Of a DNA stretch of 64,000 bases, positions 22,511 to 33,558 are shown piece after piece. The stretch spans positions 372,001-436,000 of the forward strand of contig CANLOU010000002.1 in NCBI GenBank assembly GCA_947492995.1, in the 5' to 3' direction. Position numbers and translations under genes: made by a program. Numbering within the stretch: the stretch's first letter is position 1; each line of letters starts with the position of its first letter. The DNA comes from an uncultured Litoreibacter sp. (lineage in GTDB: Bacteria > Pseudomonadota > Alphaproteobacteria > Rhodobacterales > Rhodobacteraceae). The notes under the pieces are model-generated. The model did no database searches, was not told the DNA's origin, and was given only the letters and a program-made list of their open reading frames with translations.

Positions 22511-22608
22511 TTTTCGGTTTCATTTGATACTGTTTGGCGAATAGCAAATATAGCAGAAGAATTGAGTTTTGGGTAGTCTGCGTCATAGGCCGAAAAGGGG
22601 ACGCGCAT

Positions 22609-23841
22609 ATGTATGATCTGGCAATCATGTGGGACTGGCTGTCCTTTGCGGTCCGTTGGCTGCATGTCATCACCGCCATGGCGTGGATTGGCGCGTCGTT
22701 TTTCTTCATCGCGCTGGACCTGGGGTTGAAAAAGGCGCCAGCCATGCCGGACGGCGTATCGGGCGAGGAATGGCAGGTCCATGGCGGCGGCTTTTACCAC
22801 ATCCAGAAATATCTGGTGGCCCCGGACAACATGCCCGAGCACCTGATCTGGCACAAATGGCAAAGCTACATGACCTGGGTGTCGGGGGCCGCGCTGCTGA
22901 TGATCGTCTATTGGGCAGGGGCGGAATTGTTCCTGATCGACCCGGCCAAGACGGACCTTGCGGTGTGGCAGGCGATTGCCATTTCCGCCGGATCGCTGAC
23001 GATCGGCTGGATCGCCTACGACCTGCTGTGCAAGTCGAAACTGGGCGAGCACCCGACCTTCCTGATGGTGTTGCTGTTCGTCATTTTGACGATCATGTCA
23101 TGGGGGTATAACGAGATTTTCACGGGCCGGGCGGCGCTGCTGCATCTGGGCGCCTTCACCGCCACCATCATGACGGCCAACGTGTTTTTCATCATCATGC
23201 CCAACCAGCGCATTGTCGTGGCGGACCTGAAGGCCGGGCGCGCGCCTGACGCCAAATACGGCAAGATTGCCAAGCTGCGCAGCACCCACAACAACTACCT
23301 GACGCTGCCGGTGATCTTCCTGATGCTGTCCAACCACTACCCGCTGTCTTTTGGCACGGAGTATGCGTGGATCATTGCCGCGCTGATCTTTCTGACGGGC
23401 GTCACCATCCGGCATTACTTCAACACCATGCATTCCACCGGCAAGGGGCCGCACTGGACATGGGCGGTGACGGTGATCTTGTTCATCCTGATCGCGTGGC
23501 TCTCGACGGCCAACACCTGGCAGGAAGATTACGACAGGGCTCAGGCCGCGCCCCTGACCGCCTACGAACAGCGCATTACCAGCGTCGCGGGCTTTGACGA
23601 GGTGCATGACATCGTGCTTGGCCGCTGTTCTATGTGCCATGCCCGTGAGCCGGTTTGGGATGGCATCCGCTGGGCCCCCAAGGGGGTGTTTCTGGAAACC
23701 AAGGGCGATGTGGCCCGCGCGGCGCGCGAGATTTATCTGCAGGCGGGCGTCAGCCACGCCATGCCGCCAGCCAACATCACCGACCTGCCCGAAGAGGACC
23801 GCGCCAAGATCGTGCGGTGGTTCCGCGCGCAGCGTGGCTGA
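22609..23841 (+). CDS. puuD: Membrane-bound urate oxidase with cytochrome c domain
   Basis: Integral membrane urate hydroxylase of 410 residues that oxidises urate and passes electrons to a C-terminal cytochrome c domain, replacing soluble uricase. It has about eight membrane segments, including WLHVITAMAWIGASFFFIALD near the start and MSWGYNEIFTG midway. The haem motif CSMCH is at about residues 340-344 (GRCSMCHAREPVWDG), followed by a methionine-containing segment (GVSHAMPPANIT) that could supply the axial ligand. I chose ATG 22609, which begins at the first membrane segment; an in-frame upstream ATG at 22534 would add 25 polar residues overlapping the promoter region. It works with uraH. 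Confidence 0.93.
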   Translation: MYDLAIMWDWLSFAVRWLHVITAMAWIGASFFFIALDLGLKKAPAMPDGVSGEEWQVHGGGFYHIQKYLVAPDNMPEHLIWHKWQSYMTWVSGAALLMIVYWAGAELFLIDPAKTDLAVWQAIAISAGSLTIGWIAYDLLCKSKLGEHPTFLMVLLFVILTIMSWGYNEIFTGRAALLHLGAFTATIMTANVFFIIMPNQRIVVADLKAGRAPDAKYGKIAKLRSTHNNYLTLPVIFLMLSNHYPLSFGTEYAWIIAALIFLTGVTIRHYFNTMHSTGKGPHWTWAVTVILFILIAWLSTANTWQEDYDRAQAAPLTAYEQRITSVAGFDEVHDIVLGRCSMCHAREPVWDGIRWAPKGVFLETKGDVARAAREIYLQAGVSHAMPPANITDLPEEDRAKIVRWFRAQRG

Positions 23842-24185: not shown

Positions 24186-25931
24186 CTAGTACTTCTTGCG
24201 CAGCGCCGCAAAGCTGCTGCGCGGTACCGTCCCGTTGTAAAGCTTCATCGCAAGGTCGCGGGTGATCTGCGGCGCCGCCATGGATGTGCCAGCCACAGCC
24301 TGACGGCTGCCGGACATGGCTCCCATTGTGATGATGCCGCGCAGCACGCGGCTGCGCTCTGCCGGGGCCACTTTGTCGCCCTCCACGTTCGGACCTTTGC
24401 TGGCAAATCCCAAGCTGCAATAGGGCGCGGGGCCAAGGTTCGGGTCGGCAATCGGCCCGGGATGGGTCGGGCTGGCATAGCCGCCCCCGACCCTGATCTG
24501 GGTCGTGCCATTGGCGAAGGCGTTGATCGCCCCGTCCCGGACCACTCCGGTGTGCTGCCCCGGCGGGTCATAAAGGATTGCACGTCCGGTTTCGTCGCGC
24601 CCTTGATAGAGGCCGTCGGTCAGTCGCGATTGCCGCCCGCCGCCGCGGAACCCGCGGATGGCATCGTCACGCTGGACATAGATGTCGACCAGGCCGCGGT
24701 CCTCCGTGTCCACCGAGACCTGCCATGTTCCCGCCCGTATCGAGTGGCCGGCGGCCGTTGCGGGCCGGGTTGGGGGCACGGCGACGGTTATCAACTCGCG
24801 TCCGCCGCCTTTTGTCCCACGTGGGTGCCATTGCAAATAGGCACGCGCCATTTCGACCCCGTCGCCGTCAAGCGACTGATAGCTGCCGTAATCGGCAAGA
24901 GAGGTGCGTTCCGGACGCGCCGCCCCGTCAGGACGCAGGACCAGCTGCATGCATTTGTCTGGCTTTGCCGGCAGTTCCGGCCCCCAGATTTCAAGGAAGC
25001 TGGGGGTCGGGTCGTCAGGTTGCAACGCCCAGCCCAAGGTCGCGTCCGTTTTTGGGTCCAGCACGCCATGCAGCTGCCCCAGCCTTTGGTTGCCCATGGG
25101 CAGCACAAAGGTCACCGGACCAATATCGGTGCCGGTCTCGGAGGAGACGGCGTCCATAAACGCCTCCACCAGCCCGTGACCATCCTTGGGGCCTGCGCTC
25201 AGCCCGTAGCTGAGATTGACCACCAATGGCAGCTTGACCGAGCCCGCCGTCAGCTTTTTCTTTGTCTCGATCCAGCGGCACAGCCGCCTTGTGCGATGCA
25301 CCAGATGCAGCACCCCGAGGATCACATACAGGGGCGAGAAGGTGCCCAACGTGTCGCGGGTGATCTCCGGCGGCAGGCTGACTGCCATCACCGGGAAGTT
25401 GCACGCATCAGCATCGTCAGACGCGAAACCCGCAGCCAGATCGACCACCGCCGCGCCGTGATTGCCGAAGAAGCCGCCGCTTTGGATGGTGCCACGGCTG
25501 TAATCCACGGCTCCGGCTGCGCGGTAGAGGCTGCCCTCATCCGGCAAAGCCCCGCTGCGCAGGTCTTTCAGCATGGAACTTATGCGCCCGCCGCGCAGTT
25601 CCGCCCCGAAAGGCAGGTCCATGCCGACTTTGCCAACGGGATTGGGCTCATGCGCCGACCCCTGCATCCAGATAGAGGCAACGCGGGCGTCTTTGCCCCC
25701 GACGGTGAGCCGCTGATGGGCGAAAGGCATGGCGTCATCAATGACGCCGATGACCACCGCTTTCTTCAGGTCCTTGGGAATGGCACCGGCGCTCAGGAAC
25801 GCGCCTTGCGACGTGCTTTCTGATGCGGTGTCATAGGCTTTGGGCGCACGGTTCAGCGTATCGCTGGCCGCGATCCCGTCCAGGTGGTCCAGCAACTCGC
25901 CAAACACACCTGCCACTGTTGCAGCGCTCAT
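24186..25931 (-). CDS. Subtilisin-like serine protease (S8 family), no signal peptide
   Basis: Predicted peptidase of 581 residues. The catalytic triad can be read: Asp65 or Asp66 in VIGVIDDAMPFAH, His158 in FFGNHGAAVVDLAAG and Ser550 in AGTSMAAPQ. An oxyanion-hole Asn is likely at 281 (VLPMGNQRL). About 270 residues separate Asn from Ser, longer than in simple subtilisins, so an inserted domain (about 300-500, including WGPELPAKPDK and IRAGTWQVSVDTEDRGLVDIYV, which looks like a jelly-roll) is probable. No signal peptide, membrane segment or obvious propeptide is seen, which suggests a cytoplasmic role or non-standard export. It overlaps the 60-residue gene upstream (ATGA) and is the last gene of the haloperoxidase-like operon. 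Activity is inferred from motifs. Confidence 0.85.
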   Translation of the reverse strand: MSAATVAGVFGELLDHLDGIAASDTLNRAPKAYDTASESTSQGAFLSAGAIPKDLKKAVVIGVIDDAMPFAHQRLTVGGKDARVASIWMQGSAHEPNPVGKVGMDLPFGAELRGGRISSMLKDLRSGALPDEGSLYRAAGAVDYSRGTIQSGGFFGNHGAAVVDLAAGFASDDADACNFPVMAVSLPPEITRDTLGTFSPLYVILGVLHLVHRTRRLCRWIETKKKLTAGSVKLPLVVNLSYGLSAGPKDGHGLVEAFMDAVSSETGTDIGPVTFVLPMGNQRLGQLHGVLDPKTDATLGWALQPDDPTPSFLEIWGPELPAKPDKCMQLVLRPDGAARPERTSLADYGSYQSLDGDGVEMARAYLQWHPRGTKGGGRELITVAVPPTRPATAAGHSIRAGTWQVSVDTEDRGLVDIYVQRDDAIRGFRGGGRQSRLTDGLYQGRDETGRAILYDPPGQHTGVVRDGAINAFANGTTQIRVGGGYASPTHPGPIADPNLGPAPYCSLGFASKGPNVEGDKVAPAERSRVLRGIITMGAMSGSRQAVAGTSMAAPQITRDLAMKLYNGTVPRSSFAALRKKY

Positions 25932-26110
25932 CTTTTGAAGGCCCGATCAACCAGATCGGCCACGTTCAACGGCTTGCATGAGGCAACCTGCACACATGCC
26001 GGGCCTTGCCCGTCTGTGTGTTCCTCTAGCCAATAATGGGCGTAAGGGTTTGACGTGTTGTCAAACCCATCTGCTTTCTCCGCAGTGGGGTCTTCCCAGA
26101 TCAGCTCCAT
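25928..26110 (-). CDS. Small protein (60 residues) between haloperoxidase-like and protease genes
   Basis: Not recognised. The acidic N-terminal half (MELIWEDPTAEKADGF) leads into an aromatic-rich middle (NPYAHYWLEEH), two cysteines (ACVQVASC) and a basic end (DRAFKR). It has no signal peptide or membrane segment. The start lies within the last ten bases of the haloperoxidase-like gene and the stop overlaps the protease start, so all three are likely translated together. It could be a protease cofactor, inhibitor or substrate, or a regulator of the oxidase; the sequence alone does not decide. The tight overlaps on both sides are the main evidence that it is real. Confidence 0.7.
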   Translation of the reverse strand: MELIWEDPTAEKADGFDNTSNPYAHYWLEEHTDGQGPACVQVASCKPLNVADLVDRAFKR

Positions 26111-27273
26111 TTCAGGGCCTGCTCTTTTGTTGCGCCGGTCCAGATCGCGCGCAGGATCGGGGCAGGGCGGACCTTGACGGGGTCGATCACCTCGACGCTT
26201 GGGTCGTCACCGCTCATCAACTTGGCGACCTCGCCAAAGTGGAAATCACGTGGCGCCCCATTGTCGTTGTATTTCTCGCCGCCAAAGCTGCGCGGCGTGA
26301 CGTTTTGGTCGCCCTTGCGGGCCCGCGCGGCCAGGTATTGGCCCAACGTGATACCCAGAACCGCGCCTGCCGCGCTGTCAGCGGTGTAATGGACGCCAGC
26401 CACCGTGCGATTGGCCGCAATGCGGGCCGCCATTCGGAAATACTGGCTGTCCGCGTTGATGGCCTTGAGCGGCGTGTCGCCACATTCCAGCTCGCTCAGC
26501 AATGTCGCGGTGACGAATGCCTGCGTGGCGTGGCCACTTGGGAACGCGCCGTGATCGGGTGTCTGGATCATCGGCTGCAATTTGTCCGACAGCGCCGCGG
26601 GGCGCGGGCAGCCAAGGGTCAGCTTCATCTCCATTGCCACGGTCGACGCAAGATAGAGCCCCGTGCGCAGCAGATCCAACGTCGCGCCCGCGCGTTTTGG
26701 GTGCATGTAGCTGATAGACCCGAAAAAGGACAAAACGTCATTCAGCTGTGTGTGGACCTCCGGCAGGCGCTCCCCGCGCAATTCCGCGTAATTTGCGATC
26801 ATCGCCAGATCGCGCACGAAATCCTCGTTGCTTGGGCGGTGCAACCCGACAAGCCGGGCATAGTTTACCGTCAGATTGTTGCCGTCCTTTTCGCATTGGG
26901 TGGCGCAATACAGGGTCGATGTGTGCGGGGTGGTGTTCTTGCCTTCCCGCCCCGTGGTGAACCGCAGGTCGTTGAGCAATTCGGAGGCCATCACCGAGCG
27001 GCGGTGACCAGAGGTCAGCCGCGCGAACCGTTCTTGTTTGCTGAGATTCGGAACCTCGCCAATTTTGCCCTCGATGGCTTCCATGCCGATGATGCTGTCA
27101 CGTGCGCGCGACAGGGCCGTCGACAAAAGCGTAGATGCGCGGGAGCCTGCGTGCCGGGTCCCATCAGCATTGTCCGCATTATCCGCGTTATCAGCATTGT
27201 CTGCGTTATCCGCGTTGTCTGCATTATCCGCGTTGTCGGCATTATCCGCATTGTCCGCGTTGAAAAAAGACAT
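26101..27273 (-). CDS. Vanadium-dependent haloperoxidase / PAP2-superfamily enzyme with (NAD)11 N-terminus
   Basis: Enzyme of 390 residues with the complete vanadate/phosphate-binding triad of the PAP2/haloperoxidase superfamily: K217-x6-R224-P225 (KLTLGCPRP), P-S-G-H at 245-248 (AFPSGHATQ), and R289-x5-H295-x3-D299 (NRTVAGVHYTAD). The soluble layout, without membrane segments, favours the haloperoxidase-like branch over membrane phosphatases, but halide oxidation is not proven. After MSFF the protein has eleven Asn-Ala-Asp repeats (residues 5-37), an acidic, probably disordered tail. No signal peptide is seen. A strong ribosome site (GGGGGACGAAG) precedes the ATG. It leads a three-gene operon with a 60-residue protein and a subtilisin-like protease, divergent from a SARP-like regulator. 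Confidence 0.85.
   Translation of the reverse strand: MSFFNADNADNADNADNADNADNADNADNADNADNADGTRHAGSRASTLLSTALSRARDSIIGMEAIEGKIGEVPNLSKQERFARLTSGHRRSVMASELLNDLRFTTGREGKNTTPHTSTLYCATQCEKDGNNLTVNYARLVGLHRPSNEDFVRDLAMIANYAELRGERLPEVHTQLNDVLSFFGSISYMHPKRAGATLDLLRTGLYLASTVAMEMKLTLGCPRPAALSDKLQPMIQTPDHGAFPSGHATQAFVTATLLSELECGDTPLKAINADSQYFRMAARIAANRTVAGVHYTADSAAGAVLGITLGQYLAARARKGDQNVTPRSFGGEKYNDNGAPRDFHFGEVAKLMSGDDPSVEVIDPVKVRPAPILRAIWTGATKEQALKWS
27163..27261. repeat. 9-base tandem repeat, 11 copies, in frame (Asn-Ala-Asp)
   Basis: Exactly 99 bases made of eleven 9-base units. On the minus strand each unit reads AAY-GCN-GAY, coding Asn-Ala-Asp. Third positions vary between units, so selection appears to act on the peptide rather than on perfect DNA copies. 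Unit changes would keep the frame, giving length variants rather than on/off switching. Confidence 0.95.
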
Positions 27274-27425
27274 CTTCGTCCCCCAAAAATCAATTACACT
27301 TTCAAAATTGCAACGGTGTTGCTACGCTTGATACTCCGGTTGTTATTTCTTTATTTCAAGACATTTACGTGATTTTGGCAAAAATTGCCGAGTGACGTTG
27401 TGTCAAAATTGGCGAAGGTGCGTAG
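27274..27425. promoter_or_regulatory. Divergent AT-rich promoter region, haloperoxidase-like operon / SARP-like regulator
   Basis: 152 bases, clearly more AT-rich than surrounding coding DNA. It contains the inverted repeat GGCAA-AAA-TTGCC (27377-27389) and a nearby related half-site TTGGC (27409-27413). These are candidate operators for the divergent regulator. The operon ribosome site lies at its left edge and a GGCGAAGG ribosome site precedes the regulator's GTG. Confidence 0.6.
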
Positions 27426-29015
27426 GTGAGCGAGGGTCAAAAGATCATACTCGACCTTGCCGGGCCGGTGAATTTGACCGGGCCGAGGGGGATGAATTTG
27501 ACCCCGGCGGGTATGAAAGCCAGAGGCATTCTGGCCTATCTGGGCACCTGCCGCCAAATGCGCTCCAGCCGGGTGCGCCTGCAAGACAAACTGTGGAGCA
27601 CCACGGAACCCGCCCATGGCGCGGCCAGCCTGCGGCAGGCCTTGTCGGAAATCAGGCGGCATCTGGGACCGCACCGAGACGCGCTTCAGTCCGGATCGGG
27701 CTGGGTGGGGCTGGACCCCGACCAAATTGCCGTGTCGCTGGAGGCCTTCGACGAAGACGGGCGCATGATAAGCTGCGAGTTCGCCGAAGACCTGGATATC
27801 AAGGACGCCGAATTCGAAGATTGGCTGCGCGACTACCGTCAGCATCACCATGCCCGCAAGAAGGTTGCGGAACTACCGCGCTCGCTCGATACGGCGGGCA
27901 CCCAGTCCAACGCCCCGATATTTGTCATCAGCAAAGCCAATTCGGGGCATCTGGATCTGGATGCGGCCTGCGAACGCGTTCTGCGCAGCGGCACCACACA
28001 AGCTGCCGAATTCCTGTCCGCGCTGGTGTTTGACGAGGCGCAGTTTGTTGGCGACTACCCGACGGCGTTGAAGATTTTCTGCTCCGCAAGCAGCATCGGT
28101 GATTTGATGACCCTGCAGGTGGGCGTCAGCCACATGGCATCGGGCCGCCAGATTTGGAGCCGGACCATTGATATCAGCGTGTCCGACACCAGCGCCCAGC
28201 TACAGCGTTTGGCGGGGGAGCTGACCCTTGCGCTGCTGAACTACGAGTTCGGCATCCCTGACGAAAGCGGGGACGGGGCGCATTGCATCTCGCTGCGCGA
28301 CATCTTTGCCTTCACGCCGGAGCGCCTGTTTCGGGCGGATCGCTCCCTTGGGGCGGAAAGTGACGCGCGCAGCCGCGCCACACGGCTGGCGCTGCGGGCG
28401 TTTGTGCGCAACACGATCTTTGTGGAGCGCCTGTCGGACGACGGGGAAGAACTGCTGCGTGAGGCCCAGCATTTTTGCCGCGAGGCGTTCGAATTGGAGC
28501 CGCAAAACTCCGTTGTGCTGGCTGTGGGCTCAATCATTGCGTCGCGCACCGAACAATATGAACTGGCATTTGATCTGGCCCATCAGGCCATCAACGCCAA
28601 CAGCGCCAACCCGCTGAGCCGCTATAGCCTGTCATATGGTTTGACGGGGGTCGGCGATCATGAACGCGCCTTCAAAGAAGCCGAGTTTGCCCAAACCAGC
28701 CCGATCACGGCCATCAGCCCTGCGACGTGGTTGATGCGGTCCTCGGTCTCGGCTGTGCGGGCCAACAGGTTGGACGAGGCGCTGCGCTATGCCGCGACCG
28801 CGCATGGCTATTCGCCGGACTACCGGCCTGCCTTGCGGTTCATGTCGGCGCTGTATTTCGAGAAGGGCGACGAGGCCGCTACAGCCCGCTCATTGGAAAA
28901 GCTCAGAGAGTTGGAGCCAGACTTTTCGCTCAAACTGATGGCGAGCGATTCGTATCCAGTTACCTCATTGAGGGCCACAGGCCTCCTTCAGGTCACCGCA
29001 TCCGGCTTGATTTAA
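27426..29015 (+). CDS. SARP-like transcriptional regulator with winged-helix and TPR-type domains
   Basis: Regulator of 529 residues starting at GTG 27426. The first 100 residues look like the OmpR-type winged helix and start of a BTAD domain of SARP proteins: KARGILAYLGTCRQ, VRLQDKLW and SLRQALSEIRRHLG. A middle region (about 150-270) resembles the nucleotide-cyclase-associated or TolB-like segment found in related regulators. From about 330 there are TPR-like helical repeats (LREAQHFCREAFELEPQNSVVL, ALRYAATAHGYSPDYRPAL). It is divergent from the haloperoxidase/protease operon and is its probable regulator. No phosphoacceptor or ligand domain is recognised, so the input signal is unknown. 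Confidence 0.82.
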   Translation: MSEGQKIILDLAGPVNLTGPRGMNLTPAGMKARGILAYLGTCRQMRSSRVRLQDKLWSTTEPAHGAASLRQALSEIRRHLGPHRDALQSGSGWVGLDPDQIAVSLEAFDEDGRMISCEFAEDLDIKDAEFEDWLRDYRQHHHARKKVAELPRSLDTAGTQSNAPIFVISKANSGHLDLDAACERVLRSGTTQAAEFLSALVFDEAQFVGDYPTALKIFCSASSIGDLMTLQVGVSHMASGRQIWSRTIDISVSDTSAQLQRLAGELTLALLNYEFGIPDESGDGAHCISLRDIFAFTPERLFRADRSLGAESDARSRATRLALRAFVRNTIFVERLSDDGEELLREAQHFCREAFELEPQNSVVLAVGSIIASRTEQYELAFDLAHQAINANSANPLSRYSLSYGLTGVGDHERAFKEAEFAQTSPITAISPATWLMRSSVSAVRANRLDEALRYAATAHGYSPDYRPALRFMSALYFEKGDEAATARSLEKLRELEPDFSLKLMASDSYPVTSLRATGLLQVTASGLI

Positions 29016-29302: not shown

Positions 29303-29860
29303 TTATTTCAGGCCGTTACGTGCGACGAATTCCGCCAAGTCCAGAATGATCTGTCCTCTGGCTGTCGCAATGGCGGCGGGGCCACCCTCCAACGCGAAGG
29401 GCACGGCCAGATCAAACAGGCCGGAGCGTTCGCGCCCTTCTTCCACGGCCACGAAATACTGACCCGAGGCACGGAACACGCCGTCAGCACTTGCCAGCAG
29501 CTCTTCGAACCGTATTTCAAGGCGCGCGTCAGGGAAGCTCTCAAACGGCCATGGCTCCGACGCGATGCGCGCACCGCTCATTTTCGCCAGATTGCGGCTC
29601 AGGTCCAAAGCAATGGCGCGTTCCGGCGCGTCGGCCCACAGAACCGAGGTGGATGATTTCAGGATGCCGCCCTCCACCTGCTGGTGGATTTCGTCGGCGG
29701 CCGCATAGCTGGGCAAGGAGATGTCGCGAATTTCGACCGACCCGAACCCGATGCGGATGCTCTCGGTCACCGCGGGCGGCGTCACGGCGTAGCGGTCGGC
29801 ATCGCTGCCGCAGGCGGCAAGTGCGATCAACGTGGCAATCACGAGCGGTGTCTTGGTCAT
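29303..29860 (-). CDS. pqiC: PqiC-like outer-membrane lipoprotein (ABC-type transport auxiliary)
   Basis: Lipoprotein of 185 residues with a type II signal peptide and lipobox LAAC (cysteine near residue 17). The mature part matches the DUF330/ABC-transport-auxiliary family, for example VEIRDISLPSYAAADEI and the final region GQIILDLAEFVARNGL. In the Pqi system the lipoprotein anchors the periplasm-spanning MCE protein PqiB at the outer membrane. It starts four bases after the pqiB stop, so the two are cotranscribed. It ends at a bidirectional terminator. Confidence 0.88.
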   Translation of the reverse strand: MTKTPLVIATLIALAACGSDADRYAVTPPAVTESIRIGFGSVEIRDISLPSYAAADEIHQQVEGGILKSSTSVLWADAPERAIALDLSRNLAKMSGARIASEPWPFESFPDARLEIRFEELLASADGVFRASGQYFVAVEEGRERSGLFDLAVPFALEGGPAAIATARGQIILDLAEFVARNGLK

Positions 29861-29864
29861 GCGG

Positions 29865-32282
29865 TCAGCGTCCTCTAATCAGCGAGCTGGGATTGCGCTC
29901 GATCGTGTTGGCCAAAGACGCAAGCGCCTTGGCGGCTCTTTGGATGTCACGCAACGCATTCTCGACGTCGCGGGTCAACTGGTCGCCCTTGTCAAAGCCC
30001 TGGATCGTGCGGCTGGCCTGGTTCAGGACCGCAGACATGCGGTTCATCAGGGCGGGCAGGTCATCGGCGGCCAAAGCCACGGCATCAGCGGCGGAGCTGG
30101 CCGAGGCCAGCGTTCTGTTTGCATTCTCGATCACGCCGCCCTCGCGGATGGCCTTGAGGATCGCCTCGACCTCTATCAGGGCTTTGCTCAGGTCGGCGGG
30201 CAAGGCCTTGAACGCATCGGTTCCAATAACGGTGTCAGCCGTCGCGGCCAGTTCGGTTAGTTCCTGGACCAATGCGTCAACCGGCAGCGCCTCCGCTTTG
30301 TCCGCAACCGCCTGGAAGGAGGCCAGCAGTTCCGGGACCCCTTCGACAGCACTGTTAACGCCGCGCGCGGCAATTGCGGCCTCGTCGACCACATCACGCA
30401 GGCGTTGGACCAGTTGTTCTTCGTCGATGCTGGTCAGCAATTTGTTGGCGTTGTCCAAGACGCCGCCATTTTCGCGCAGCGCCAGCAATGTGGCCTCTAC
30501 CTCGCCAAGTGCCTTGCTCAGATCGGCGGGCAGGGCCTGTGTGCTTTCTGATTTGAGCAATTTGTCGGCGCTGGCCGCAACGCGGGTGATCTCGGCCAGC
30601 ATGTCTTCGGCGGGCAGGGCGGTGGCTTTGTCTGCCAGCGCGGTGACGGAACTCAGCAATGCCGGCAAGCCGATGATCGCCGTGTCCACCCCGTCCGCTG
30701 CATTGGCGGCGGCGTCGACCGCCTTGCCAAGACGCATCACAAGCTGTTCCTGCTCAAGCTGGGCCACCAGCCCTTCGATCCGCTCAAGTGTTGCGTTCAG
30801 CAAGACCGGAACGTTCTTCACCTCGTCAGAGCCTACAAGCCCGCGCACGTCACTGAGCAGCCCCACAACCTCGCCGGGCGCGCCTTGCAGGTCTTCGTTG
30901 GACACAAAGGCGGTGGCCGAGCTCATCAGGTCAATGGCGGAGGTCATCAGCTCCTCAATCGGCAAGTTGTTGATCCGCGTGATAACCCCTTCAACCGTAC
31001 CGGTCGTATCGGTGATCTGGCCCTTGGTGGTTGGCAATTGCGGGATGTCGACAGTCATGTCGAATATCGAGTCCGGCGGGGCGACGTCGGTTTGCAGGAA
31101 TTCCACCTTCAGGCCGCCCGTCAACAGGCTGGCCGAGGCCAGACGCGCCCGGAACCCTTCGCGTATGCGACCGGCCAGAAAGTTGAGCGCCGCACTTGGC
31201 GACGGCTCGGTTTCCAGGCCCAGCCGGGATGGCTGGATGGCGAGGGTTGCGATCAGCCGCACCCGCCCGTCGCCAAACTGGGCGCGGTCGATGATGCCCG
31301 AGACGCTTTGCACCTCGCCGATTTTCAGGCCGCTCAGTTCCACCGCTGCGCCGACCGACAAGCCCGAGACGTTGTCGTCAAAGATCGCATTGACCAGCAG
31401 CGTTTCGACCTCGGAGGCGTTGAACACGGAGTTGCGCGCGCTTTCCTCGTCGACATTGATGACAAACAGCTCACCATCGGCCACGCGCTCCCCGCCCGAC
31501 ACGAATGTGTCAAAGGAAATGCCGCCCGAGATCAGCGTCGCCAAAGAGGTGAAGTCGATTTCCGCCCCGGATGCGCCGATCGAGACGCTGAACCCCGACG
31601 TGTCCCAGAACCGGGTGGTGGGGGTAATCAGGCGGCCATGGGGTTCGTAAATGATGGCTTCGGCAATTGCGAAATTTGTCCGGGGAGAGATACGCGCCTT
31701 GCCGACGCGGCCGACCTCGATGCCGCGAAAGAAGATGGGCGCATTTTCTGTCAGCTGCCCGTTGGCCGTTGCGCGCAGGGCGATCTCAAGCCCGGGGCGG
31801 CTGGGCCGGAAAAGCGGCGCGTCTTCCAAGCCACGAAATTCGGTCGTGGCCTCGCCGATCTTGTTGTCCCAGGCGCCCTCGATGAAGACACCGCTCAGAA
31901 CCGTGTCCAGCCCGCTGACGCCACGTGCGGACAATTCTGGCCGCACCACCCAGAAGGTCGAGCTGCGATCGACGTAAGGGGCAACCTTCTTGTCGATCCG
32001 CACCTCGGCGATCACGGTGTCCAGCCCCTCGGAGAAGCTGACGTCCTCAACCACGCCCACGGTAATGTCGCGATACTTCAGTGCGGTTTCGTCCTTTTTG
32101 ATGCCCGCGCCGTTTTCAAATTCGATGGTAATGACGGGGCCGCGGTCGTTGTAGCTTTGCCACGCCACGCCAAGCGCGATGGCAAGGGCCGCCAAAGGGA
32201 TCAGCCAGACAAAGGAGATCCGCCCCAGCCCGCGCCCTGCGCTTGCCGGTTCGATCTTCACCTCTGTCGGCGTCTTGGCCAT
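29865..32282 (-). CDS. pqiB: PqiB-like MCE-domain protein with long repetitive C-terminal region
   Basis: Periplasm-spanning lipid transport protein of 805 residues; E. coli PqiB is 546. One N-terminal membrane segment (about 25-45, FVWLIPLAALAIALGVAW) is followed by MCE modules in the first 420 residues (ITIEFENGAGIKKDETALKY; LEIALRATANGQLTENAPIFFRG; a third beginning near VRLIATLAIQPSRL). The remaining 380 residues are helical and repetitive, with near-duplicate segments KALGEVEATLLALRENGG and KALIEVEAILKAIREGG about 105 residues apart. Start ATG 32282 is chosen because the cytoplasmic basic stretch and membrane segment begin there. It sits between split pqiA and pqiC, so it works with both. 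Confidence 0.88.
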   Translation of the reverse strand: MAKTPTEVKIEPASAGRGLGRISFVWLIPLAALAIALGVAWQSYNDRGPVITIEFENGAGIKKDETALKYRDITVGVVEDVSFSEGLDTVIAEVRIDKKVAPYVDRSSTFWVVRPELSARGVSGLDTVLSGVFIEGAWDNKIGEATTEFRGLEDAPLFRPSRPGLEIALRATANGQLTENAPIFFRGIEVGRVGKARISPRTNFAIAEAIIYEPHGRLITPTTRFWDTSGFSVSIGASGAEIDFTSLATLISGGISFDTFVSGGERVADGELFVINVDEESARNSVFNASEVETLLVNAIFDDNVSGLSVGAAVELSGLKIGEVQSVSGIIDRAQFGDGRVRLIATLAIQPSRLGLETEPSPSAALNFLAGRIREGFRARLASASLLTGGLKVEFLQTDVAPPDSIFDMTVDIPQLPTTKGQITDTTGTVEGVITRINNLPIEELMTSAIDLMSSATAFVSNEDLQGAPGEVVGLLSDVRGLVGSDEVKNVPVLLNATLERIEGLVAQLEQEQLVMRLGKAVDAAANAADGVDTAIIGLPALLSSVTALADKATALPAEDMLAEITRVAASADKLLKSESTQALPADLSKALGEVEATLLALRENGGVLDNANKLLTSIDEEQLVQRLRDVVDEAAIAARGVNSAVEGVPELLASFQAVADKAEALPVDALVQELTELAATADTVIGTDAFKALPADLSKALIEVEAILKAIREGGVIENANRTLASASSAADAVALAADDLPALMNRMSAVLNQASRTIQGFDKGDQLTRDVENALRDIQRAAKALASLANTIERNPSSLIRGR

Positions 32283-32284
32283 TG

Positions 32285-32926
32285 TCAGTCTTCCCCCGCC
32301 GCGTCCGATTGCACATCCCAAATCATGCGCGAGTCGAAGCTTTGCGCCGACAGCATGGTGAAAATCACTGAAAGGGCAAAGAACAGACTGGCAGGTCCGG
32401 GATTGATGGACGCGAGTGTGTTGAGTTGCACGAGCGACGACATGATCGCAACCACAAAGATGTCGATCATCGACCACCGCCCGATATATTCGACGACCTC
32501 GTACAGCATCTGGCGCTGCTGGAACGACGCGCTGTTGCGCCGCTTCACGCTGATGGCCAGATAGGCCACGGCGAAGAACTTGCCCAATGGGATCACCACC
32601 GACGCAAAGAGGATTATCAGCGCAATCCCCACCGCGTCATGGGTCATCAGCTCGATCGCGCCGCCCACGATGGTGTCTTGCTGCACCTGAAACAGGGTGC
32701 GGGTTTGCAGCATCGGGTACATGTTGGCGGGGATGTAGCACAGGAAGCCCACGATCCACCAAGCCCAGACCCGCTGCAGGCTTTTGCGGTCGCGCGACAC
32801 CAGGGCCTTGCCACAGCGCCCGCACGTCTCCGTGCCCACTGGCCACACCTGCGTGCAGCGCAGGCACCCAACGACGCCCATCTCGCGGGCGGTGGTGACA
32901 TGGGGGATGTCCTGCGCCACGCTCAT
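32285..32926 (-). CDS. PqiA-like membrane protein, second half (paralogous domain)
   Basis: Membrane protein of 213 residues matching one PqiA domain: an N-terminal zinc-ribbon pair of cysteines (CLRC and CGRC, about residues 22-40), then four membrane segments with the family segments WWIVGFLCYIPANMYPML and EYIGRWSMIDIFVVAIMSSLVQL. PqiA proteins are usually one chain with two such halves; here the halves are separate genes overlapping by ATGA. Its stop lies two bases before pqiB, so the order pqiA1-pqiA2-pqiB-pqiC is one operon. It likely delivers or removes lipids at the inner membrane for PqiB. Confidence 0.88.
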   Translation of the reverse strand: MSVAQDIPHVTTAREMGVVGCLRCTQVWPVGTETCGRCGKALVSRDRKSLQRVWAWWIVGFLCYIPANMYPMLQTRTLFQVQQDTIVGGAIELMTHDAVGIALIILFASVVIPLGKFFAVAYLAISVKRRNSASFQQRQMLYEVVEYIGRWSMIDIFVVAIMSSLVQLNTLASINPGPASLFFALSVIFTMLSAQSFDSRMIWDVQSDAAGED

Positions 32927-33558
32927 TTGCGCAACCCGTCCAGTGATTTCCAAACGGTCCATCGGCACATGAACCGGTCTTGGGCCACCACCAGCACCAC
33001 AAGAATGGCAAAAATCCAAAACGCAGGCCCGAAGGTAACATCCGCCAGATCGGTGAGCTTGATAAGAGCCACGGCGCAGCCGATGGCGAAAATCTCGGCC
33101 ATGGACCAAGGGCGCAGGGCCTCCGCCAGCCGGAAGGCTTGCCGCGCGCCTTTGGCGGGCATGCGATCCAGGACCACCGGGATCAGCACATAAAGCGCCA
33201 GCAAAACCCGCAGCAGCGGGATAAAGATGATTAGCGCCGCCGTGGACAGGGCCAACGCAATCAGCGGGCCGTCGCTGAAGGCAAGGGCCGCATCCAGAAT
33301 GGAGACAGAGTTGGTGTTGCCTGCGGCTTTGATCGTCAGAAACGGAAACACGGTCGCCGCAATGACCAGCACCACAATGGCAATCGAGACTGCAATAATC
33401 TGCAAGCCCGCCTTAGCGCGGGGCGAGATCAGCACCGTGTGGCACCGCACGCAAACGGCCCGTTCCCCATGCGTAGGCCGCTGCAGCCTGTAGGCCGCAT
33501 CACAATGCGGGCAAACAATGAGGTCGGTGACAGGTTGGGGCGGCAGCCGGTGGTCCAT
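32923..33558 (-). CDS. PqiA-like membrane protein, first half
   Basis: First gene of the pqi-type operon, 211 residues. A zinc ribbon opens the protein (CPHC near residue 16 and CVRC near 36), followed by about four membrane segments. The motif ALRPWSMAEIFAIGCAVALIKL corresponds to the paralogous position in the second half. It complements the separately encoded second half. Stop overlaps the next start. No local regulator is obvious. Confidence 0.88.
   Translation of the reverse strand: MDHRLPPQPVTDLIVCPHCDAAYRLQRPTHGERAVCVRCHTVLISPRAKAGLQIIAVSIAIVVLVIAATVFPFLTIKAAGNTNSVSILDAALAFSDGPLIALALSTAALIIFIPLLRVLLALYVLIPVVLDRMPAKGARQAFRLAEALRPWSMAEIFAIGCAVALIKLTDLADVTFGPAFWIFAILVVLVVAQDRFMCRWTVWKSLDGLRK

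Follow-up and report, generated by a model that had tools for sequence, protein, structure and literature searches.

A stretch of 64,000 nucleotides from an uncultured Litoreibacter species (contig CANLOU010000002.1, positions 372,001 to 436,000 of the forward strand; here called the window) carries a cassette of linked genes for a soluble enzyme of the PAP2 superfamily, a subtilisin-like protease and a divergently transcribed regulator. Nearly all enzymes of this family begin with a perfect tandem array of a very short peptide unit, and a switch of unit tends to be accompanied by changes in the tetratricopeptide repeat (TPR) half of the regulator. This suggests that the regulator reads the repeat as a molecular tag. 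The mechanism proposed here is a tag-reader-protease switch inside the cytoplasm, with the tag bound by the TPR half and a dedicated protease acting on the tag, and we give it about an even chance of being right. The regulator encoded in the cassette would bind the N-terminal tandem peptide of the enzyme through its TPR half; its other half would contact DNA, and in some relatives looks like a nucleotide cyclase. The protease would cut the tag from the enzyme, or cut within it, and this would change what the regulator sees and free or remove the enzyme, thereby coupling the state of the enzyme to gene expression. Four elements of this scheme are what we infer: that the TPR half binds the tag directly, that the tag is cleaved, which way the regulation runs and what reaction the enzyme carries out. 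The parts of the cassette are the following, in positions of the window:

26101 to 27273, minus strand: soluble enzyme of the PAP2/vanadium haloperoxidase fold, 390 amino acids (PF01569 PAP2, E 2.8e-13)
27163 to 27261, minus strand: N-terminal tandem tag of the enzyme, 11 perfect NAD tripeptides, residues 5 to 37
25928 to 26110, minus strand: open reading frame (ORF) of 60 amino acids with an SPYxHYW-type motif and a C-terminal DLIxRAF-type motif
24186 to 25931, minus strand: subtilisin-like (S8-like) protease, 581 amino acids, with the fold of the Csp germination proteases
27426 to 29015, plus strand: divergent regulator, 529 amino acids, GTG start
28416 to 29015, plus strand: TPR half of the regulator (about residues 331 to 529), which shows the strongest link between divergence and repeat unit
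27274 to 27425, no strand assigned: divergent intergenic region of 152 bp, the presumed control region

On the minus strand the enzyme gene overlaps the 60-amino-acid ORF by 10 bp, and this ORF overlaps the protease gene by 4 bp; the regulator and enzyme genes diverge, 152 bp apart. All four ORFs lie where a first-pass annotation, made from the letters of the window, had placed them, and its reading that the enzyme, the 60-residue protein and the protease carry no apparent signal peptide was shared on inspection by eye. The linkage of enzyme, protease and regulator is real. Among 80 loci chosen by enzyme similarity a subtilisin was present in 78 and a regulator in 78, and the four incomplete loci (L079 and L083 lacking the subtilisin, L082 and L086 lacking the regulator) are all cut by contig ends. 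In 19 regions of the genus chosen by protease similarity (L025 to L043, from 21 places, with the window itself and G013 left out) the enzyme gene adjoined the protease gene in every case, and the regulator stood beside both in all 19 with a broader query set and in 17 with the window's own proteins. Two genomes are common to these sets, L058 and L068 coming from the same genomes as L026 and L027. A sample of the family added 60 regions with 61 enzyme genes, covering most matches down to E 1.8e-28 (G424 and G397 were left out, G000, G008 and G174 were already in the set, and L262 and L264 repeat L096 and L123). For 60 of these 61 genes a regulator was seen, and for 53 a Csp-type subtilisin lay in the region, that of L268 on the far side of the regulator. 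Homologues of the cassette genes therefore co-occur widely, and the cassette recognised by the first-pass annotation stands as a conserved one; the repeat tag and its covariation with the TPR half had escaped it.

The tandem array at the enzyme N-terminus

The window enzyme starts with MSFFNADNAD, and its 11 NAD units are written in 8 different codings. In an AlphaFold2 model residues 1 to 40 have a pLDDT below 50, and the array is predicted to be disordered. Of 185 enzyme sequences compared, 179 are distinct, and 178 of these have at the N-terminus a perfect tandem array with at least about three copies. The sole enzyme lacking one, in L246 (6374 to 7420), has a degenerate, imperfect six-residue repeat of the NTRSGx type. 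The unit is three residues long in 157 arrays, four in 15, two in five and five in one, and the cassettes carry 3 to 20 copies. After collapsing of rotations 95 different units remain, rich in glycine, alanine, asparagine, glutamine, serine and histidine and free of cysteine. As array detection looked for perfect runs, the amino acid identity within an array is partly built into this detection; the L122 enzyme is partly masked.

In one and the same sample the array was found in none of 24 PAP2 homologues outside the family and in all six members, one outside homologue (L161) having only an internal poly-alanine run. Among 98 proteases only 4, and among 99 regulators only 7, had runs of at least three copies; with a single exception these were six or seven residues long, the longest measuring eleven. 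The idea that another protein might bear the same tag found no support in two genomes, where NADx3 (window genome) and NTGx3 (G019) were found only in the enzyme gene.

Codons at the same position of the unit differ in 65.1% of comparisons, compared with 59.2% expected when codons are drawn from neighbouring genes (97 arrays, 762 units; L058, L068 and the partly masked L122 left out). Identical neighbouring units were encountered 21 times as compared to 38.8 +/- 5.3 in permutations (minimum 22; none of 2000 as low). DNA-level identity between neighbouring units is avoided, and codon diversity above expectation together with so few identical neighbours indicates that the array is translated and maintained as a protein sequence.

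The unit turns over fast: 10 of 22 pairs of enzymes with 80 to 90% core identity have it in common (L058, L068 and L122 left out). From each of 14 genomes two or three cassettes were compared, and none of the 16 resulting pairs shares its unit, which is also expected by chance given the number of units. In genome G000 a second, divergent copy of the cassette (L028, 6711 to 9962, contig C3) bears an interrupted SAL array, not NAD. Within species and among close relatives the number of copies changes by whole units, as in NSF x5 to 7 in three Phaeobacter species and GGA x9 to 11 in L090 to L092. A Paracoccus plasmid (L200, 3860 to 4927) has a two-block array, NAHx3 followed by TAQx4, perhaps caught during a switch of unit.

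Such copy-number changes and the two-block array are what would be expected if the array were a neutral or structural linker, a low-complexity stretch expanding by slippage, its association with the regulator being due to shared ancestry and recombination tracts. The perfection of the amino acid sequence in spite of highly diverse synonymous codons and the avoidance of identical neighbours argue against such a linker, as does the position of the covariation described below, and we consider it very unlikely.

Covariation of the repeat unit with the regulator

The regulator has a SARP/OmpR-like winged helix at about residues 1 to 110 and a TolB-N-like middle, both assigned by homology, and a TPR C-terminal half. 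It had been called SARP-like with TPR repeats. A SARP-type regulator would combine an OmpR-like winged helix with a BTAD domain. This type is suggested by homologues, which are annotated as 'SARP family' or 'winged helix' or carry TPR models, and by matches to Trans_reg_C in L187, L189 and L257 and to BTAD in L257; the window protein itself gives no Pfam winged-helix or BTAD match and only sub-threshold TPR matches. In some clades an N-terminal part resembling an adenylate/guanylate cyclase takes the place of the DNA-binding domain and the TPR part stays; PF00211 is found in L179 and, below the cut-off, in L087, with L190 assigned by annotation and L180 and L182 by eye.

A pair of sister genomes with co-directional genes, L030 (unit GGV) and L042 (unit GGF), has 26 of its 28 regulator substitutions at residues 488 to 546, and a dip in DNA identity covers the end of the regulator and the array. 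Taken alone this pattern could represent one recombination tract, as the linker explanation would have it. In the divergent arrangement it is the DNA-binding end of the regulator that adjoins the array, and the TPR end lies about 1.5 kb away. In divergent loci regulator identity corrected for protease identity was scanned against unit identity (57 loci, 242 pairs, 53 of them with the same unit). The association with the unit is absent at residues 4 to 110 (z -1.5 to 1.0), exceeds 2 from about residue 213 and peaks at residues 385 to 479 (z 2.6 to 3.4), with the protease reaching at most z 2.0 and the enzyme core at most z 1.8. The covariation thus falls in the part of the regulator that is far from the array on the DNA, which counts against a neutral linker.

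Disjoint pairs of loci gave the same picture. The divergence of the TPR half relative to that of the protease was 0.42 in 18 same-unit pairs and 0.98 in 11 different-unit pairs (one-sided p=0.00025), and the DNA-binding part yielded 0.51 versus 0.60 (p=0.61). Choosing the different-unit pairs first, with mean distance equalised, left p=0.0039 for the TPR half. With all loci (47 disjoint pairs) the TPR values were 0.44 for 23 same-unit and 0.85 for 24 different-unit pairs (one-sided p=7.4e-6), and the DNA-binding part gave p=0.37. Pairs containing a locus of the later family sample behaved alike (TPR half 0.54 in five same-unit versus 0.82 in nine different-unit pairs, p=0.03; DNA-binding part p=0.78). 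L058, L068, L122 and loci without one of the three genes were left out of the scan and pair tests, and the all-loci pair tests also left out L262 and L264 as repeats and L275, which has two cassettes. Across seven Paracoccus loci TPR columns 366 and 404 segregate with the unit, position 404 being arginine with glutamate units and glutamine with glutamine units.

Several results weigh against the tag-reader-protease switch. Shared ancestry is not fully removed by the permutation test of the scan. In co-directional loci the regulator end reaches z 2.9 and a stretch of the enzyme core does so as well; over all co-directional pairs the enzyme core is associated with the unit at p=1.3e-6, and recombination across neighbouring DNA could explain the link between unit and regulator in this clade, where the covarying enzyme core likewise favours the linker. 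The enzyme core differed in the 18 and 11 disjoint pairs too (0.81 versus 0.99, p=0.028), and over all loci the regulator middle (residues 160 to 330) was associated with the unit (p=0.0055). No single regulator column is significant as a specificity site, since at least two segregating columns are also reached by 4 of the 34 other partitions, and some pairs switched their unit without acceleration of the TPR half (L089/L107 and L063/L069). Units of two, four and five residues occur, so that no single periodic structure fits. The net charge of the TPR half does not track that of the unit (rho -0.06), and a mirroring of charges between the two was rejected on this ground. In a separate observation, enzyme-core net charge was inverse to unit charge (rho -0.51, p 5e-4, over 44 units; five regions were tested).

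The alternatives overlap with the proposed switch, and the chances given to them need not sum to one. A TPR regulator covarying with a repeat unit could also be read as multi-copy peptide signalling. In that case the array would be a precursor from which the protease frees short repeat peptides that bind the TPR regulator in the manner of RRNPPA systems; the peptides would possibly pass between cells, and the enzyme domain would be a carrier or a peptide modifier. The repeats are uniform within an array and diverge fast between lineages, and a protease is part of the cassette; duplicated pheromones in RRNPPA propeptides are described in PMC11343458. Against this, no signal peptide was seen by eye and no exporter is found among the cassette genes, a wider search for exporters and peptide genes not having been made, and what bears the repeat is a conserved enzyme, some 340 residues long, in which the active site is largely invariant. 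Peptide signalling of this kind is considered unlikely.

The enzyme and the protease

The enzyme is a member of the PAP2 superfamily (PF01569). The core motifs of this superfamily are spaced as K-x6-RP, PSGH and R-x5-H. The active-site residues read by the first-pass annotation, lysine 217, arginine 224, serine 246-glycine 247-histidine 248, arginine 289 and histidine 295, proved to be invariant in 32 aligned sequences including that of the window. In a set of 15 sequences from the genus lysine 217, arginine 224, histidine 248, arginine 289 and histidine 295 were again invariant, serine 246 and glycine 247 were variable, and histidine 241 was invariant too. The AlphaFold2 model (mean pLDDT 86.6) is closest to bacterial acid phosphatases (7f17 and 1d2t, TM-score by query length about 0.4), followed by vanadium iodo- and chloroperoxidases, and sequence comparison likewise ranks the acid phosphatases first. 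In the Ascophyllum bromoperoxidase 1qi9 histidine 241 is matched by the histidine of SPTHPSYPSGHAT; 7f17 lacks an equivalent residue. The label haloperoxidase-like is doubtful, the closest sequences and folds being those of acid phosphatases, although histidine 241 is common to bromoperoxidases; phosphatase activity is judged about twice as likely as halide oxidation.

The alignment of histidine 241 lends something to a defence or stress cassette, in which the regulator would respond to a signal by inducing a true haloperoxidase that makes an intracellular oxidant, along with a protease that would tame it, and so do the self-contained build with an own regulator and the presence on plasmids in some genera. 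The closest folds tell otherwise, as do a PADLOC search of the four window proteins, which gave no convincing match (best E 0.057), and the lack of a match in a phage collection. Furthermore, matches to the enzyme across the genus (19 of 21 genomes) and neighbouring genes shared with Paracoccus-type loci look stable rather than mobile. Such a defence role appears highly improbable.

The protease belongs to peptidase family S8, with an Asp/His/Ser triad and an oxyanion asparagine in a subtilase fold. The triad noted by the first-pass annotation from histidine 158, serine 550 and an aspartate is borne out, aspartate 65, histidine 158, serine 550 and the oxyanion asparagine 281 being invariant in 30 aligned sequences including that of the window. 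PF00082 is reached at E <= 0.01 in 25 of these 30, the window member falling below the threshold. Its model (pLDDT 87) has a large insertion between asparagine 281 and serine 550 and is closest to clostridial CspB (4i0w, E 3.6e-21) at an identity of about 15%. Csp germination proteases act together with SleC in hydrolysis of the spore cortex, and Rhodobacteraceae are not known to form spores of this kind.

The 60-amino-acid ORF is most likely a split-off N-terminal segment of this protease. Of 40 Paracoccus-type and related loci examined, 25 have a small ORF in this position, 14 of the 25 with a PYxx-aromatic motif; it begins just before the enzyme stop and mostly ends at the protease start. 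A profile of the small ORF aligned with the N-terminal ends of longer proteases (hhalign probability 95, E 4e-8), and L063 and L071 have small ORF and protease fused into one (E 3e-14 and 1e-12), which points to a pro-segment that has been split off. The suggestion that the small protein is a separate processed peptide or a substrate was dropped on the strength of this match to a segment fused to the protease in relatives. A perfect 10-bp inverted repeat, GGGTTTGACGTGTTGTCAAACCC, lies inside the ORF at window positions 26046 to 26068.

The slot of the protease is constant, and its class is exchanged in distant members, as judged from profile matches and inspection by eye. Other S8 types (PF00082) were found in L180 (E 8e-13), L187 (E 2.4e-16), L260 (E 5.9e-7) and L261 (E 9.7e-18), a peptidase of type A4/G1 in L182 (PF01828, E 8.9e-21) and, alike by eye, in L179 and L181, and a papain-like protein in L257 and L259 (PF00112, E 0.0016 and 0.0024, just below the cut-off) and, by eye, in L258. 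L260 and L261 as well as L257 to L259 are among the 61 genes of the family sample, where no protease was seen for three, L228 (contig end), L245 (3 kb of sequence past the enzyme) and L252. It is possible that the protease activates or removes the enzyme, which fits the swapping of its class.

An exchangeable protease and an array predicted to be disordered are also compatible with a zymogen, in which the repeat would be only an inhibitory or solubilising pro-segment whose removal by the protease activates the enzyme, the TPR link being secondary. A precedent comes from the protease fold itself: according to PMC3567191 Csp proteases are needed for release of the N-terminal propeptide from pro-SleC, and CspB has an inserted jellyroll domain and a retained prodomain that also works in trans. 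Perfect repeats with an ever-changing unit and regulator covariation are left unexplained by a zymogen, and covariation of the protease with the unit is not strong (z 2.0 at most). A zymogen alone is regarded as quite unlikely.

Distribution, related systems and significance

Within the genus a protease match was found in 18 of 21 genomes and an enzyme match in 19 of 21. In a scan of GTDB genomes a profile of 15 enzyme sequences retrieved 571 relatives, the best 80 of which were kept and span Rhodobacteraceae, Paracoccus, Roseibium, Microvirga, Bradyrhizobium, a Chromatiales, a Polaromonas and others; keeping the best 80 of 571 means that distant members are under-sampled and that other phyla are possible. 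At the larger taxonomic scale the cassette is patchy. Of 240 genomes sampled from the class 38 had an enzyme match at E <= 0.001 and only 6 at E < 1e-30, and of 198 genomes sampled from the family 80 had a match, 50 of them below 1e-50. In several genera the cassette is plasmid-borne (L189 to L205), Phaeobacter inhibens being one example, with 35 plasmid records containing an enzyme match; some of these plasmids in Phaeobacter are typed as conjugative, and their strains carry 5 to 7 NSF units. A phage collection contained no match, and 21 loci on viral contigs gave partial, distant PAP2 matches.

Next to the cassette in the window (29303 to 33558) are genes which we take to be like pqiC, pqiB and pqiA, of the paraquat-inducible lipid-transport type, and genes related to them are again found as its neighbours in L025 and in several loci of Paracoccus. 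Clustering of flanking ORFs of at least 100 amino acids revealed no obvious fourth cassette gene among the 12 largest clusters; pqi-like genes are shared with Paracoccus-type loci, and other families are restricted to some loci. The other side (22534 to 23841) encodes a membrane protein whose C-terminal part has a CxxCH motif like that of cytochrome c; this protein presumably resembles an enzyme of the urate oxidase type. Promoter and terminator scans of the 152-bp region and the locus gave promoter-like and terminator-like matches only at chance level, and scans of the 64-kb window for Rfam families (gathering thresholds) and tRNA were empty.

In ComQXPA systems signal and receptor part change together as specificity groups, the pherotypes; the protein families are others there, and they have no tandem-tagged enzyme. 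The nearest described logic would be, by analogy, RRNPPA signalling with duplicated pheromones. Both have a TPR regulator, often with a DNA-binding domain, a short and possibly repeated peptide and the involvement of a protease (PMC11343458, PMC9765709). There the peptide derives from a secreted propeptide of Bacillota with 1 to 4 copies (PMC11343458), whereas in the Pseudomonadota sampled here 3 to 20 copies sit on the N-terminus of a soluble enzyme that shows no sign of a signal peptide, together with a regulator of the SARP/TolB/TPR or cyclase/TPR type. In place of the small secreted propeptide with a signal sequence that is a defining feature of RRNPPA systems, the repeat is borne by a protein of 390 amino acids, signal peptides again being judged by eye.

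With Csp and pro-SleC (PMC3567191) the cassette has in common the nearest protease fold, a subtilase with a large insertion and the pairing of a protease with an enzyme bearing an N-terminal pro-segment; the prodomain working in trans may be likened to the split 60-amino-acid ORF. The enzyme is a different one, there is no repeat array in that system, and at about 15% identity the likeness to Csp is one of fold only. Acid phosphatases and vanadium haloperoxidases have the PAP2 fold and the active-site residues in common with the cassette enzyme (TM-score by query length about 0.4), which differs from them in its repeat tag, a larger N-terminal part, the lack of an apparent signal peptide and its neighbours, a protease and a TPR regulator.

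No description of this gene combination was found in the open-access literature searched (subscription papers and preprints lay outside its scope), in line with the impression of the first-pass annotation that no such system had been described. The system is built of known folds, and its mechanism is a proposal. Whether it amounts to an undescribed signalling principle of Pseudomonadota, a hypervariable, internally perfect barcode that would be read by a TPR half and acted on by an exchangeable protease, is put forward tentatively, with confidence slightly short of even. Amino-acid-perfect repeats with codons more diverse than expected are a rare pattern. The proposed switch would give a function to a trio which in the annotated records examined is called only 'phosphatase PAP2', 'S8 peptidase' and 'winged helix', 'SARP', 'TPR' or 'cyclase'. 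If it is true, there would be no cross-talk between cassettes that differ in barcode, and bacteria would have a tag-and-reader system with a specificity code visible in the sequence, represented by 95 natural units and matching TPR domains, so that recognition of peptides by TPR domains and its evolution would become directly testable.

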